64,000 bases of DNA from Thiobacillus denitrificans ATCC 25259. Lineage in GTDB: Bacteria; Pseudomonadota; Gammaproteobacteria; Burkholderiales; Thiobacillaceae. The stretch covers positions 2,046,001 through 2,110,000 of the forward strand of contig NC_007404.1 in the NCBI RefSeq assembly GCF_000012745.1. The letters run 5' to 3'. The notes under the pieces are model-generated. The model had not been told where the DNA came from. It saw only the letters and a program-made list of their open reading frames with translations, and searched no databases. Positions 10,573 to 47,680 of this stretch are shown in pieces (within the stretch, counting starts at the first letter, position 1; each line of letters begins with the position of its first letter). Made by a program: the position numbers and the translations under genes.

Positions 10573-11115
10573 TTATTCGCGCCGCTTGCGACGCACGGCC
10601 ACCACCAGCATCCCAAGTCCGGATGCCAGCATCGCGTATATGTCGGGTTCAGGCACAGCCGACACGGAAATTGAGACGTTTGTCGAATCGAAAATATCGT
10701 TCAAAGCTGCGACGCTGTAAGTGAAGCCTGCGAAATTCTGCGGATTGGCAAAGTCAGCCTGCAACATGAAATCGTCCGTGTTCGTGCTCACGCTGCGTGC
10801 ATCATCCCAACTTGTCGCCTTGTAGGCGCCCACGACGCCCGAAGACCCGGCAGGGTAATCCAGTGCAAAGTAACCGACCTCCGAGGGCGAATAAGTGCGA
10901 TCCCCGATGGTCAGATTAAGACCGGTGACGTTGGTGCCGTCGAGCGTCACATGACCCGAAATGGCGGCATAGGGCACGGGCGTACCGTTATACGAGGTGA
11001 AGTTGGACGCCGTAAAGGTATAAACCTGTGCCGCAGCCTGGGCGGTCTGGACAAACAGGGAACCAAGCACAACAAGGCCCACTGCACTGGCAGCAGCCCA
11101 AAACGAGTTTTTCAT
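10573..11115 (-). CDS. PEP-CTERM exosortase-substrate protein
   Basis: A 180-residue secreted protein. The signal peptide spans residues 1-27 (MKNSFWAAASAVGLVVLGSL, ending QTAQA). The mature part is rich in Thr, Ser and Asn (VYTFTASNFTSYNGTPVPYA), consistent with an extracellular beta-sandwich. The C-terminus carries a complete PEP-CTERM signal: AVPEPDIYAM, the hydrophobic LASGLGMLVVAV and the basic RRKRRE end. ATG 11115 is supported by GGGGGAGGT 6 nt upstream; an in-frame ATG at 11226 lacks a signal peptide context. It should be processed by an exosortase encoded elsewhere. Confidence 0.88.
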   Translation of the reverse strand: MKNSFWAAASAVGLVVLGSLFVQTAQAAAQVYTFTASNFTSYNGTPVPYAAISGHVTLDGTNVTGLNLTIGDRTYSPSEVGYFALDYPAGSSGVVGAYKATSWDDARSVSTNTDDFMLQADFANPQNFAGFTYSVAALNDIFDSTNVSISVSAVPEPDIYAMLASGLGMLVVAVRRKRRE

Positions 11116-11400
11116 AGTTACCTCCCCCTGGTTATTGTTGGCCGGGATATAAGCAAAACCTGTTCCCGTGGCGCTCTTAATGGCATATCCATGATTCATC
11201 AGGGAAACCTTTTCCAGAAAGCGCAAATCCCGCGTTCGATGTAAAGGATTTCGACAATCCAGCGAGCCTATACAGGCATGCAGTTCGCCGAACAGCCTGG
11301 AAATTCGAAGACGTGAAAATCGTGGCCTGGACTGACCCCCTTTAGTTACAGGTCCGGCCCCATCTGTTCCTGTTTATTTGTTGTCGCGGCGCAGCAGCGC

Positions 11401-41353: not shown

Positions 41354-41429
41354 GTCCCCATCGTCTAGAGGCCTAGGACATCGCCCTTTCACGGCGGTAA
41401 CCGGGGTTCGAATCCCCGTGGGGACGCCA
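41354..41429 (+). tRNA. tRNA-Glu(TTC)
   Basis: 76 bases with an encoded CCA end. The acceptor GTCCCCA pairs with TGGGGAC. The anticodon loop CTTTCAC gives anticodon TTC. The T-loop is GGTTCGAATCC. Confidence 0.96.
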
Positions 41430-42863: not shown

Positions 42864-42887
42864 ATGGCGCCCGGAGACGAATCGAAC
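42864..42887. other. attachment site (distal), tRNA-Arg 3' copy
   Basis: ATGGCGCCCGGAGACGAATC and the next four bases match the 3' end of the tRNA-Arg gene (47604-47628) except for one missing C and one substitution. The orientation is the same. It marks the end of the integrative element away from the intact tRNA. Confidence 0.78.
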
Positions 42888-43031
42888 ATAACGCCACAAG
42901 CCTTTCTATCGCTTGTTATGTGATTTGCGGATTACTCAACTACCGCCACAACTACCGCCACCCCATAGCCGTTGTCGCTCCGTCTTCCAATCATTTGCAT
43001 GTAAGCTCTCGCCTTAAAAGGGGAGAGAATA

Positions 43032-43667
43032 ATGCTTGTCAGAGCAACACAAATTACTGTGGCAGTAATGTTATCTGGGGCGTGTCTCTTGGCAGACGCG
43101 GCAACCCTCGTTGACACAGGGTCACCCGAGCTAACTCAAAACGGCGCGATTTCTGTAATAAATTACCCCTACGCGCACCAGTCAGTAGGCGCCGGCTTCT
43201 CTCTGTCAGGCTCATATAACATCACGGACATCGCTAGTTATTTCTGGATTGGCAATCCAGGAACGCTGACGCTGTCTCTCTACAGCGAACGCTCAGGTTT
43301 GCCGGGGGATCAACTCTTCTCAAACGAGTTTTCTATTGACGGCAGCCCCTCCATCAAAGGCTGGTTTGGTCTAAGTGGCTTAAATTGGTTTGTTGCGTCG
43401 GGGAATTACTGGGTGACCTACGAAATCCGGGGTACCCAGACGTTCAATGGAGCGCTTGAATTTCCCCCCCCGTTTCCCACGAAAATGGCTGTGAGGAATG
43501 ATTACTACACCGACTGGACTTCCCACCCGAGCGGTTTTGGTTTGATTGTTGAGGGCACGCCCGCCAGCGTCCCAGAACCCCATTCCTTCATAATGTTTTT
43601 AGCGGGATTGAGCTTGCTCGGTGGCATGGTGCGAGGCCGCAAGCAAGTATCGGCCTGGTTTAGATAA
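43032..43667 (+). CDS. PEP-CTERM protein carried by the integrative element
   Basis: A 211-residue secreted protein. The signal peptide is residues 1-23 (MLVRATQITVAVMLSGACLL, then ADA). The mature region is beta-rich with many Ser, Gly and aromatic residues (ASYFWIGNPGTLTLSLYSER, VASGNYWVTYEIRG). The C-terminus has a complete sorting signal: VPEPHSFI, the hydrophobic MFLAGLSLLGGM and the basic VRGRKQ. GGGGAGAG precedes ATG 43032. It is the only plus-strand gene of the element and is more AT-rich than the chromosome. It would require the host exosortase. Confidence 0.88.
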   Translation: MLVRATQITVAVMLSGACLLADAATLVDTGSPELTQNGAISVINYPYAHQSVGAGFSLSGSYNITDIASYFWIGNPGTLTLSLYSERSGLPGDQLFSNEFSIDGSPSIKGWFGLSGLNWFVASGNYWVTYEIRGTQTFNGALEFPPPFPTKMAVRNDYYTDWTSHPSGFGLIVEGTPASVPEPHSFIMFLAGLSLLGGMVRGRKQVSAWFR

Positions 43668-44292
43668 GAACGCCCAATCGCCCCAACAAGGAAGCGGCCT
43701 GAGTCTCGAACACTTCATCCCTCCGCATTTCCAGTTCCCATATCTGATTACGCAGGCGATCAAAGGTCTTCTGGTGCATCCCCTTGGGCCGCTCCCAACC
43801 GTTCCACTCATCAGCGCCCTCAGCCAACTTGCGTTCAAGCTTGCGCTGCCTGCGCCATAACCGCGCCATTTCATCGTCGCATTGGCTGAGGTAGGTAACA
43901 CGAACGCAGCGACGACACGCATAGCGCCCGCCAGGTGCGCCGTAATAGACCAAGGCGCAGCGCCGCCCGCATGAAGGGCACAGAAACCACGGACGGGAAC
44001 CGCCGTAATTGCATGGCGAGTGCGCTATCCATAGCGAGCATTCAACATGGCGCGGCTCGCCGTTATAGGGCGTCCACTGGTAAGCAAGGATAACTCGCTC
44101 GGGATCACCAGCAACACGCACGCCCACGCTGCCGATTTTCTCCCCGTAGTTATTTGACCATTGCCATGAAAAAGCCCCCCGCCGCAGCAGCCCTTTCTTG
44201 GCGATCTGCCGCACGTCGAATGCCAACGACTGTTCGGCCTTTCGCTTCCATCCCGGACGGCCTGCGCCGTATCTCATGCCGCCAGTACCCAT
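43660..44292 (-). CDS. zinc-ribbon protein of the integrative element
   Basis: A 210-residue protein of unknown function. It has two CxxC pairs in WFLCPSCGRRCALVYYGAPG and RYACRRCVRVTYLSQC, which look like a zinc ribbon. The N-terminal ~85 residues include FDVRQIAKKGLLRRGAFSWQ and a Trp-rich strand. The C-terminal part is a charged coiled-coil-like helix (MARLWRRQRKLERKLAEG). Such proteins occur in small mobile elements of proteobacteria, perhaps binding DNA. Its 3' end overlaps the convergent PEP-CTERM gene by 8 bases. Confidence 0.7.
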   Translation of the reverse strand: MGTGGMRYGAGRPGWKRKAEQSLAFDVRQIAKKGLLRRGAFSWQWSNNYGEKIGSVGVRVAGDPERVILAYQWTPYNGEPRHVECSLWIAHSPCNYGGSRPWFLCPSCGRRCALVYYGAPGGRYACRRCVRVTYLSQCDDEMARLWRRQRKLERKLAEGADEWNGWERPKGMHQKTFDRLRNQIWELEMRRDEVFETQAASLLGRLGVLI

Positions 44293-44387
44293 TATTCAGC
44301 CCTCACAGAATACGAAATCATTAGGAAGAAAATCTGGATACCGAACTCGAACCGGCTCGAAATCCGCGCCATTAAAGGGCTTCCACT

Positions 44388-45401
44388 TCATCCAAGCTGT
44401 GTTTGTCGAGTGGGCACTGCCGGCAGTCGGTACTCCCCGCGCTCACTATCCCAGTACGCCGAAGGAACATCGTCGTGGCAACGGGTAAACTCTTCGCTGC
44501 TAGTCTCCTCAGGATGACTTTCAGGGTCGGGCAAAGGTGACGGCTTTCTAGCGAACCCTACACAGGATAGGGATCGACGTTTTTTGGGTGACACCTCCGC
44601 AAACCCTATAGGCTTGGAATCGCGACCAAGCCCTATAGGCTTCTCAGGTTTGCAAGGCTTGGTCATGATTCCGACAAACGTTTGTCGCTCCATTTCCCGC
44701 AGCGGCATCGGCAAACTCAATGCCGTGAGCATGGGCGCAGGATTAGGCTTCAGAAGATCCAGCAAGGCGTTTTCGACTTCTGGCCGCAACAACATCTCCG
44801 GGCTGCTCTGGAGCGCCGTCATAATCAACGAGGCGGCTTTATTCCTTGTCGCCGGATTCAAACGCTTCTGCACTTTCGGACGGGTCAGCCCGTACCCGCG
44901 TCCCACCTGTTCGAAGAAACTCGTTTGCATAGCGTGTAGGCGGGTTCTGTTGCCCACGAGGTCGCTTCCGGCCATACGCCCGTCAACCAGCGGCAGCAGC
45001 AATACATGGAAATGCGGCGCAGCTTCGTCGAGGTGAATCACAGCGGACAAGACCGGCACGGAGAAGAAACCCTGCACCCAAGCCAGCGACTCGGAAAAAA
45101 AGGACTCGGGGTCGATGGTCGATGACGACGGCAGGCTGACGATTATTTCAACGCCGCGAACCGCGTCGCGTCGCAGCCGTGCTACCCCGGCGCTGTGCAT
45201 CAGCCGTTCCGCCTCGGCCGCAACATCGTCAGCACGGTCCGGCCCAGCTACGACCCGATTAAGGCCAATACGGGTGTGGTCGATATGGCTTCCTGCCCCC
45301 AACTCGGCCTGAAGCTCTCGTAGGTTGTGTTTCGAAGCGACGCGAACAATATCCCTGCCCACCAATTTCTTGAGGCGCAGATATTGCCGGTCTGAGCTCA
45401 T
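44388..45401 (-). CDS. MobV/Pre-type plasmid relaxase
   Basis: A 337-residue relaxase that should nick the element's oriT for conjugal mobilization. The HUH metal motif is present in VIHLDEAAPHFHVLLLPLVD, with the preceding Glu/Asp as in MobV proteins. The N-terminal QYLRLKKLVGRDIVRVASKH and IDHTRIGLNRVVAGP segments fit the Pre/Mob fold. The C-terminal ~130 residues are Pro/Ser rich and less conserved. Its start overlaps the stop of the winged-helix gene (ATGA), so the two form an operon. I could not point to the oriT. Confidence 0.86.
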   Translation of the reverse strand: MSSDRQYLRLKKLVGRDIVRVASKHNLRELQAELGAGSHIDHTRIGLNRVVAGPDRADDVAAEAERLMHSAGVARLRRDAVRGVEIIVSLPSSSTIDPESFFSESLAWVQGFFSVPVLSAVIHLDEAAPHFHVLLLPLVDGRMAGSDLVGNRTRLHAMQTSFFEQVGRGYGLTRPKVQKRLNPATRNKAASLIMTALQSSPEMLLRPEVENALLDLLKPNPAPMLTALSLPMPLREMERQTFVGIMTKPCKPEKPIGLGRDSKPIGFAEVSPKKRRSLSCVGFARKPSPLPDPESHPEETSSEEFTRCHDDVPSAYWDSERGEYRLPAVPTRQTQLG

Positions 45402-45685
45402 GGCGCCACCTTCATCAACACATAGCGGGCAACGCGATGCCTACGCCCGCACTCGGTCGGCGCATTCGTCCATATCGTTACAATCTCGAAGCCCCTCGCG
45501 CTCAGCTCGAACACGCGGGCGGCCGACATCAGAATATCGAGATCGCCTCTCGCTTCAATGGTCGTTACCGAGCGTCGAGCTTCAAACGCTGCGAGCAAGC
45601 GCATGCTTTGTGAGTGGGCTGAATTGTCGTTGTGGTCGGGTTGGGTGTTTTGGGCTGCCTGCGGGTGGCCTTTCTCTTTTTCCAT
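45398..45685 (-). CDS. winged-helix DNA-binding protein of the element
   Basis: A 95-residue protein. The central segment MRLLAAFEARRSVTTIEARG, then LDILMSAARVFELSARGFEI and VTIWTN, matches a small winged helix: a recognition helix (AARVFELSARG) followed by a wing. The first ~27 residues are polar (HPQAAQNTQPDHNDNSAH). It is cotranscribed with the relaxase and could regulate mobilization genes. Confidence 0.7.
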   Translation of the reverse strand: MEKEKGHPQAAQNTQPDHNDNSAHSQSMRLLAAFEARRSVTTIEARGDLDILMSAARVFELSARGFEIVTIWTNAPTECGRRHRVARYVLMKVAP

Positions 45686-45697
45686 CAGCGCCTCCGC

Positions 45698-45904
45698 TCA
45701 GCCTGCTAGGCTGGCAAGCGCCGCCCGGACTTCGCCGACGTTCCAACGGGTTGTACCTTTACCCAATTTGCGCGGGGCAGGCAGTCTCCCCGCCTTTGCC
45801 CAACGCCAAACAGTGACTTGCGAAACTCCAAGCCATGCCGCCAGTGAGCGCACCGCAACGAAGCCGCAGTCCGGCATGGCGTCTAGATTCTGGATACCGT
45901 TCAT
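45698..45904 (-). CDS. AlpA/MerR-like excisionase or regulator
   Basis: A 68-residue protein with a MerR-like helix-turn-helix: VAVRSLAAWLGVSQVTVWRW, then AKAGRLPAPRKLGKGTTRWN. This is the AlpA/Xis-type fold that often assists a P4-type integrase in excision. It lies 12 bases upstream of the winged-helix gene. Confidence 0.8.
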   Translation of the reverse strand: MNGIQNLDAMPDCGFVAVRSLAAWLGVSQVTVWRWAKAGRLPAPRKLGKGTTRWNVGEVRAALASLAG

Positions 45905-45920
45905 TTTCTGGTCTCAAATG

Positions 45921-45941
45921 AAAAAACCGCCCGAAGGCGGC
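45921..45941 (-). terminator. first of two tandem terminators in the element
   Basis: On the minus strand the stem CCGCC/GGCGG with loop TTCG is followed by six U. It lies between the integrase stop and the excisionase start. Confidence 0.7.
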
Positions 45942-45956
45942 TGGTTGCTAAAGACG

Positions 45957-45979
45957 AAAAAAAACCGCCCGAAGGCGGC
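45957..45979 (-). terminator. second tandem terminator in the element
   Basis: The same CCGCC-TTCG-GGCGG stem-loop, now with eight U. It duplicates the structure at 45921, 36 bases away. Confidence 0.75.
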
Positions 45980-46075
45980 TTGCTTGGTGCTTGGTGTGAA
46001 CGAAGAAAACCCGAGCTCGGGAGCGTACTGGGCTTTGAGCCACAACCTACGAGTAATGATGCGGTCAGCGGACGC

Positions 46076-46100
46076 GAAAAAACCGGCTTATGGCCGGTTT
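46076..46100. terminator. third, bidirectional terminator hairpin in the element
   Basis: The stem AACCGGC/GCCGGTT with loop TTATG is flanked by an A run on the left and a T-rich stretch on the right. It would stop integrase transcripts before they reach the excisionase-relaxase operon. Confidence 0.65.
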
Positions 46101-46193
46101 GCGGTTTTTCTGGATTTCAAAAGGACGCAATGGCCCCTACCCCGAACCATAAAGCACATTTCACCGACTTTCAACCCTGTTCACGCAAAAACA

Positions 46194-47423
46194 TTAAGCC
46201 GTCCGAGGCAGCAGGATAATTTCCGCCCCGGTTTCCAGCGCGTCGCAAGTGTCCGCCCACGCCTGCATCATATTGCGTCGCTCGGGCAGATGCTCGGATC
46301 TCGCGTAGGCGGCTACAGTGCTATCCGTCTCCTTGTGGTCTAGCTGGCGTTCCATCGCCTCGCGGCTCCATCCCTGCTCACTCAGGATCGAGCGCGCCGA
46401 GGCCCGAAACCCATGCACGCACTGGCGCCCTTGATACCCCATCTTGTTCAGCATCTTGCCGACGGTGTTCTCGGATATGACTTCCGCGTCGCCGTAGCCT
46501 TTCACCTTGGGAAACAGGTAGGGCGAATGCCCGGTGAGGTTCTTCAATTCGGTTAACAGCGCGAGCGCCTGCTGCGACAGGGGCACGGTATGGGCTGGCA
46601 AGGCCTTGCCGGTCTTCATGCGCTTGGCCGGGACTTTCCATTCCTTGGCCTGCCAGTCGATTTCTTCCCACTTGGCGTAACGAAATTCCTGGGCGCGAAC
46701 AAACGTCAACAACGCGAAATAAGCCGCGTGGCGGGTGACGGCATCGTAGCCGGTGGCCTCTCTCAGATCGCGCAGGAAGGCGCCAAAGCCGCGCCGATCG
46801 GTGATGGCCGGCCGGTGATTGACCTCGGGCTTATGCAGGGCGCCTAGAAGGTGCGCCGCGGGGTTGTCTTCCGCCCTGCCGGTCGCCACGCCATAGCGGA
46901 ATATCTGCCCGCACACTTCGCGTAGACGGACGGCAGTGTAGGCAATGCCGCGATTCTCCACTTTGCGTAGCATCGCCAGCAATTGCGAAGCCTTCACGCT
47001 GGCGATGGGCAGGTGTCCCATCTCAGGAAAGACATAGGCCTCGAGCTGCGCCATGGTCTTGTCCGCGGTCGATTGCGTCCACTTCCGCTTGAGTTTCATC
47101 GCGTGCCATTCCCGTGCCACGGCCTCGAACGAGTTGGCTTGCGCTGCCTGGTTGGCGCGCTTGGTTTCCTTGCGCTGCTCGCCGGGGTCCGTGCCATCGG
47201 CCAGCATCGCCCGCGCGTCGTCGCGTTTCTGGCGGGCGCGGGCAAGGCTCACGTCGGAGTACACCCCCAGCGCCAGCGTCTTGCGCTTGCCTAGAAAGCG
47301 GTAATCCATACGCCAGTACTTCCCGGCCTGGTTCACCAGCAAGTACAGTCCCTTTTCGTCGGCCATCTTGTAGGGCTTGTCGCCCGGCTTGGCCTTCTTG
47401 ACGGCGGTATCGGTCAGCGCCAC
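46194..47423 (-). CDS. P4-type tyrosine integrase
   Basis: A 409-residue site-specific recombinase. The N-terminal DUF4102-like arm-binding domain is TDTAVKKAKPGDKPYKMADE, then LYLLVNQAGKYWRMDYRFLG. The catalytic core has the Arg in FVRAQEFRYAKWEEIDW, HxxR in CVHGFRASARSIL and the nucleophile Tyr in TVAAYARSEHLPERR. The start GTG 47423 has AAGGAG 6 nt upstream. It lies next to the tRNA-Arg 3' end, the expected target. Confidence 0.94.
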   Translation of the reverse strand: MALTDTAVKKAKPGDKPYKMADEKGLYLLVNQAGKYWRMDYRFLGKRKTLALGVYSDVSLARARQKRDDARAMLADGTDPGEQRKETKRANQAAQANSFEAVAREWHAMKLKRKWTQSTADKTMAQLEAYVFPEMGHLPIASVKASQLLAMLRKVENRGIAYTAVRLREVCGQIFRYGVATGRAEDNPAAHLLGALHKPEVNHRPAITDRRGFGAFLRDLREATGYDAVTRHAAYFALLTFVRAQEFRYAKWEEIDWQAKEWKVPAKRMKTGKALPAHTVPLSQQALALLTELKNLTGHSPYLFPKVKGYGDAEVISENTVGKMLNKMGYQGRQCVHGFRASARSILSEQGWSREAMERQLDHKETDSTVAAYARSEHLPERRNMMQAWADTCDALETGAEIILLPRTA

Positions 47424-47603
47424 GGCGCGCTCCTTTCGTGTGACGGTATGTGACTTTTGACAGTCCCGCATACCGTATGAACTACCGTCAGTCTGACGGT
47501 GTTTCGATGCTACGCCGTGAAATGAAATGACACAACAGAAAAGGCGATAGTCGCTTATTTTCTTGGGTTTTCTTGACCGGGTGATACTGGATGAAATGCT
47601 TGG

Positions 47604-47628
47604 ATGGCGCCCCGGAGACGAGTCGAAC
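47604..47628. other. attachment site (proximal) in tRNA-Arg
   Basis: Begins ATGGCGCCCCGGAGACGAGT. It covers the tRNA 3' end and repeats at 42864-42887 with two differences. Confidence 0.78.
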
Positions 47629-47680
47629 GTCCGACCTACCCCTTAGGAGGGGGTTGCTCTATCCACTGAGCTACCGGGGC
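47605..47680 (-). tRNA. tRNA-Arg(CCT)
   Basis: 76 bases with CCA encoded. The acceptor GCCCCGG pairs with CCGGGGC. The anticodon stem ACCCC/GGGGT encloses the loop CTCCTAA, giving anticodon CCT. The 3' end is the target of the integrative element and is kept intact here. Confidence 0.95.

Follow-up and report, generated by a model that had tools for sequence, protein, structure and literature searches.

A stretch of approximately 4.76 kb (from att to att) in the chromosome of Thiobacillus denitrificans ATCC 25259 is quite probably an integrative mobilizable element, which is inserted into a tRNA-Arg(CCT) gene and has a terminal slot for exchangeable genes, loaded here with the gene of a PEP-CTERM protein that is predicted to be sorted by the host. 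It is best read as belonging to a family of compact islands that target tRNA genes in Thiobacillus, in which the terminal slot is often occupied by genes for exported, frequently exosortase-dependent proteins. The support comes from the att repeats, from arm-type sites repeated at either end, and from an integrase gene that is intact, an excisionase-type regulator, a MobV-type relaxase and the presence of the empty site in congeners. The window analyzed here is the whole 64-kb stretch comprising positions 2,046,001-2,110,000 of the single 2,909,809-bp contig of this genome, and the coordinates in Table 1 are those of the window.

Integration site and element ends

The 3' end of the tRNA-Arg gene, ATGGCG(C)CCCGGAGACGARTCGAAC, is repeated nearly exactly some 4.7 kb away, as was already noticed in a sequence-only reading of the window. 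The two copies (24/25 nt) differ by one substitution and one 1-nt deletion. Their alignment score is 38, compared to the best score of 26 and the mean of 19.4 in 300 shuffles of the interval, and no further copy of the repeat was found within the window. In addition, a short arm-type sequence has three exact matches in the 64 kb, each of them at an element end. Judging by their place and repetition, these sites are probably bound by the integrase. Ends resembling the distal arm-site end are also found in four other elements (L083, L101, L105, and L128). The PEP-CTERM gene is bracketed by the arm-type sites and is thus located inside both these sites and the att repeats, which places it within the functional ends, beyond merely lying between two scars.

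Table 1. Features of the tRNA-Arg hotspot and the integrated element (window coordinates)
Feature	Position	Strand	Basis or remark
tRNA-Glu(TTC), native neighbour, far edge of the integration hotspot	41354-41429	+	ARAGORN
Stem ATAGCGGC...GCCGCTAT adjoining tRNA-Glu	41491-41510		Matches the hairpin after tRNA-Arg in empty congeners
J-domain protein gene, unique to this genome	41562-42737	-	PF00226
attR	42864-42887		Copy of the tRNA-Arg 3' end, one acceptor-stem nucleotide short
Two presumed integrase arm-type sites AACTACCGCCA, 12 bp apart	42938-42960 (starts 42938, 42950)	+	Distal element end
Cargo gene, exported PEP-CTERM protein, 211 aa	43032-43667	+	PF07589, N-terminal hydrophobic segment
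ORF210, zinc-ribbon-like, two CxxC pairs, 210 aa	43660-44292	-	Outside classified families
MobV-type relaxase (Mob_Pre), 337 aa	44388-45401	-	PF01076, 5e-16
HTH_39 winged-helix protein, 95 aa	45398-45685	-	PF14090, 2e-27
AlpA-like/HTH_17 excisionase-type regulator, 68 aa	45698-45904	-	Profile matches
Three terminator-like hairpins between int and alpA	45925-46100
Tyrosine integrase, P4/AlpA-associated type, 425 aa	46194-47471	-	PF13356, PF22022, PF00589
Third presumed arm-type site AACTACCGTCA	47480-47490	+	Integrase end of the element
attL	47604-47628		Overlaps the intact tRNA-Arg gene at its 3' end
tRNA-Arg(CCT), integration target	47605-47680	-	ARAGORN

The empty site was found in six congeners of other species (G063, G015, G079, G072, G023, and G014), where convergent tRNA-Glu and tRNA-Arg genes are separated by 112-250 bp. 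Such a site had been predicted from the window, but as a junction of tRNA-Arg with the region upstream of the J-domain gene; the native neighbour turned out to be tRNA-Glu. As judged by the hairpin match listed in Table 1, native DNA resumes at the stem next to this tRNA gene. The J-domain gene region was also considered as the ancestral flank and was rejected, since no ortholog of the gene (beyond the J domain itself) was found in 55 congeners; the accretion therefore exceeds 4.7 kb. Being placed between attR and the native hairpin, i.e., inside the hotspot and outside the att repeats, the J-domain gene is probably an older accretion, and the DNA accumulated at the hotspot probably has two layers.

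In other congeners, the tRNA-Arg/tRNA-Glu interval is filled with unrelated DNA. Integrases 82-86% identical to that of the window are found at the same tRNA-Arg in G064, G035, and G024. The accompanying genes are of the phage-satellite type. Going by sequence resemblance and not by family scans, G064 and G035 encode primase-like proteins; capsid/protease-like ones are encoded in G064 and G024. The same hotspot in G066 (L093:15379-17946) contains a 344-aa PEP-CTERM-like gene with a score of 20.5 bits, just below the Pfam cut-off; integrase or att remnants were not found there.

Genes of the element

Starting from the tRNA gene, the element consists of attL, an arm-type site, the integrase gene, the three hairpins, the genes for AlpA/HTH_17, HTH_39, MobV, and ORF210, and, after ORF210, the convergent PEP-CTERM gene, two arm-type sites and attR. 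All of the ORFs in the element are open, and among the ORFs of 42864-47628 integrase and relaxase are encoded without any mating-pair formation genes. The sequence-only reading had described an integrase, an AlpA-like protein, a MobV-type relaxase and little else; the three assignments hold, and what the description passed over are the 95-aa winged-helix protein and the 210-aa ORF. Both of these are backbone genes, common to the sister elements described below. The HTH_39 protein is 66-78% identical to its copies in six sister elements, and its gene overlaps the relaxase start by 4 nt. ORF210 shows 84 and 81% identity to its counterparts in L101 and L102, respectively, and has further relatives on small plasmids. 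Relatives of both HTH_39 (35%) and ORF210 (39%) are found on pDCAR2, a 10.5-kb plasmid of Solidesulfovibrio carbinolicus (L174), which suggests that the two genes may also travel together on plasmids.

The relaxase scores 59.6 bits with PF01076 (cut-off 25.5) and 79.6 bits with NCBIfam NF041497 (cut-off 100). The MobV motifs KHNLRE, HIDHTRIGLN and HLDEAAPHFH are all intact; the first and the last agree with the patterns HNxR and HxDExxPHxH and are kept in L128 and L123. No relatives of the relaxase were found in viral contigs. When the DNA upstream of the MobV gene was compared by homology in search of a common oriT, only coding similarity emerged, and no oriT was recognized.

PEP-CTERM cargo and its predicted sorting by the host

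The cargo protein has a signal peptide and a 24-residue PEP-CTERM tail, which scores 26.5 bits with PF07589 (cut-off 20.7) and 14.9 with TIGR02595, just under the cut-off of 16. The GC content of the gene is 0.52, compared to 0.59 in the backbone. When phages, plasmids, viral contigs and 369 genomes of the class were searched for relatives of the mature domain, only one weak partial match was obtained, and among the congeners searched the chromosomal relatives share the tail only. An AlphaFold model computed without an alignment was too poor for use (mean pLDDT 39.5), and a search of a defence library with the cargo proteins gave a single weak match (E 0.005). At the DNA level the window resembles L101 (85% over 632 bp) from the ORF210 stop codon onwards, and this similarity does not reach the PEP-CTERM gene. 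This homology break, taken together with the outer position of the arm-type sites, argues that the PEP-CTERM gene is a genuine internal cargo. The view of the sequence-only reading that the gene is carried by the element is thereby borne out: the gene is inside the att and arm-type sites, the closest sister element does not have it, and in related elements its place is taken by other proteins, most of them exported.

Two exosortase genes (PF09721) are present in this genome, at 308285 and 1893117, both outside the window, and at least one was found in each of the 27 good congener genomes. Since no exosortase gene resides within the element, the cargo protein is predicted to need the host system and would be sorted by a host exosortase. 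We found 19 PEP-CTERM proteins in this genome; 21 such proteins and two EpsH genes have been reported for T. denitrificans ATCC 25259 (Haft 2006; PMC1569441). Another PEP-CTERM protein gene of the window (10573-11226, minus strand) is located outside any element examined.

Sister elements and the cargo slot

Four query proteins (integrase, HTH_39, initiator-like protein, and ORF210) and a reading of the DNA flanking the matches were used to gather the sister elements. The family comprises elements of 5-7 kb at tRNA-Thr, tRNA-Leu, and tRNA-Arg genes with the common order int, alpA, HTH_39 (missing from some), a 170-aa initiator-like protein, ORF210 or small genes, cargo, and attR. The 170-aa protein resembles O-type replication initiators (phrog_345, E 1e-4), and in most of the sister elements, which lack a relaxase, its gene takes the relaxase position. 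MobV replaces the initiator-like gene in the window and in L128 of G065. The latter, residing at the same tRNA-Arg hotspot, has AlpA, HTH_39 and a MobV 69% identical over 337 aa, and lacks both ORF210 and a PEP-CTERM gene. Because the contig of L128 begins within the element, the integrase is outside view. G297 likewise has MobV adjoining HTH_39, as does G170 in a truncated contig. From this distribution, conjugal mobilization appears to belong to the MobV-bearing branch and not to the whole family. A second element-like region is found in the T. denitrificans genome itself (L169:1872-7356, within 2,749,000-2,766,000). It shows a partial match to the integrase and encodes an initiator-like protein and a relative of ORF210 (35%), after which comes a large gene resembling type I restriction-modification methylases.

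PEP-CTERM genes fill the same terminal slot in three elements at tRNA-Thr or tRNA-Leu (L105, L112, and L132). Elsewhere the slot holds a 217-aa exported protein with two small membrane proteins (L116), a 161-aa exported protein (L115), a 127-aa membrane protein (L111) or a PDZ protein with no evident signal (L104), and the satellite-like L082 has a surface-adhesin-E domain protein at the corresponding place. Yet another PEP-CTERM gene borders an outer attR in L083, the remnant of an element, whose 94-bp flank matches the element end of the window (E 1e-8). The region L083:7484-9019 (G024) is a tandem accretion at the tRNA-Arg hotspot, in which the outer attR of a window-like element comes first, the PEP-CTERM gene second and the attR of a satellite-like element last. 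The PF07589 cut-off is passed by the proteins of the window, L112, L132, and L083, and that of L105 scores 18.0 against 20.7. Only the tail is common to the proteins encoded in the window, in L105, in L083, and in L112 and L132; the last two form a pair, being 29% identical to each other, both with a Lcl_C-type domain.

PEP-CTERM genes are thus a recurrent type of cargo and not a one-off of the window element. The sequence-only reading had regarded the cargo strategy as unusual and had proposed to look for the same gene in other elements. The cargo itself stands, its uniqueness to this copy does not, and the sister elements carry other PEP-CTERM genes in the slot, none of them with the mature domain of the window. 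The 159.7 Mb of the genus contain 790 PEP-CTERM motifs, so that 0.36 would be expected in the 50.3 kb of nine compact elements; four are present (Poisson P 5e-4). Three remain against 0.33 expected when the window is left out (P 0.005), and two when the sub-cut-off L105 is left out as well (P 0.04). Because the family was assembled post hoc, after the first case had been seen, these figures are supportive and do not constitute a test. In ten control islands borne by tRNA or tmRNA genes (96.5 kb) none was found, with 0.52 expected, a contrast that on its own is low in power.

Proposed life cycle and alternative explanations

In the proposed cycle, Int and AlpA would excise the element as a circle, MobV would nick a putative oriT, a helper conjugation system would carry the strand into a recipient, and Int would reinsert it at tRNA-Arg, remaking the tRNA gene. 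The terminal slot, flanked by the stop codon of ORF210 on one side and the arm sites on the other, is where cargo genes are exchanged. The cargo protein is expected to be sorted by one of the two chromosomal exosortases and so to reach the cell surface or the matrix, and the likely gain of the element would be a changed surface in any exosortase-bearing host. More tentatively, and with doubts somewhat outweighing our confidence, the slot could be specialized for one exported protein at a time, in recurrent cases an exosortase substrate. The elements would then swap surface or matrix proteins among hosts that have a sorting system in common, and would load a host-dependent surface trait as other elements load resistance or defence genes.

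The nearest integrases at this tRNA are encoded by elements (L081-L083) that also carry primase-like and HK97-protease/capsid-like genes. The relaxase-less sisters, where an O-like replication initiator takes the place of the relaxase, are similar to minimal satellites, PICMIs among them (int, alpA and a replication gene; PMC10803314). The window element could accordingly be a phage satellite or a derivative of one, spread in helper phage particles with the relaxase as a secondary passenger. This is unlikely in view of its gene content, as profile searches of the element revealed no primase, capsid, terminase or packaging gene, while the MobV motifs are intact and conserved along with HTH_39 in G065, G297 and, in part, G170. 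We know of no helper phage for this family. It is still less probable that the region is a decayed, immobile island, in which a chromosomal PEP-CTERM gene without any cargo role became trapped between att scars. It is true that attR is one nucleotide short and that the PEP-CTERM gene reads towards the backbone and shows no apparent connection with the element genes. However, every gene is open with its motifs intact, the congeners searched have no chromosomal relatives of the gene beyond the tail, and other PEP-CTERM genes occupy this slot in other elements. The shortened attR, moreover, recurs in 16 of 18 alignments and is therefore a family trait rather than decay.

Relation to known systems

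The element shares with the integrative mobilizable elements of the MobV type (PMC5704250) the tyrosine integrase, the AlpA/Xis-like regulator, the relaxase, the att repeats in a tRNA gene and the absence of mating-pair genes. It differs from them in being very compact and in its cargo, an exosortase-dependent protein in place of the resistance or metabolic genes usually reported. PICMIs and other minimal phage satellites are alike in size, the int-alpA core, the small number of genes and the variable content, and the sister elements come close to the PICMI plan; the target, however, is a tRNA gene and not fis, and a relaxase or an O-like initiator is found in place of the primase (PMC10803314). 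The cargo protein has the hallmarks of the PEP-CTERM/exosortase system: signal peptide, PEP motif, hydrophobic helix and basic tail (PMC1569441). In a description of that system, PEP-CTERM proteins were presented as paralogous families expanded within lineages, and its text uses none of the terms "mobile", "horizontal" or "lateral transfer" (Haft 2006; PMC1569441). Among the open-access papers searched, no report of PEP-CTERM genes as mobile-element cargo was found.

The mature domains of PEP-CTERM proteins vary widely and the function is known for few. Repeated carriage by mobile elements would give these genes a direct route of spreading and provide a selectable handle on their functions, which might include surface identity, floc formation or shielding from phage. 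Should the present reading be right, host-sorted surface proteins would join the cargo types of small mobilizable elements. As a general claim, specialization of the terminal slot for exported, exosortase-dependent proteins is plausible.

Recurrent deletion in attR

Exactly one nucleotide is missing from attR in 16 of the 18 attL/attR pairs of this integrase family (the window, L104, L105, L107, L110, L111, L112, L114, L115, L116, L083, L129, L130, L132, L133, and L138). The missing nucleotide corresponds to approximately tRNA position 70, three before the discriminator, whichever tRNA or tmRNA is used, and we know of no reason for this fixed deletion. As for the other two pairs, L082 can be aligned only up to a larger loss, and L134 has two sites, one that matches without the deletion and another that carries it. 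The attR copies at tRNA-Thr have element-specific T-arm bases in common, while the host tRNAs differ. The T-arm copy therefore seems to be a part of attP, and strand exchange seems to take place within the final six nucleotides of the tRNA gene.
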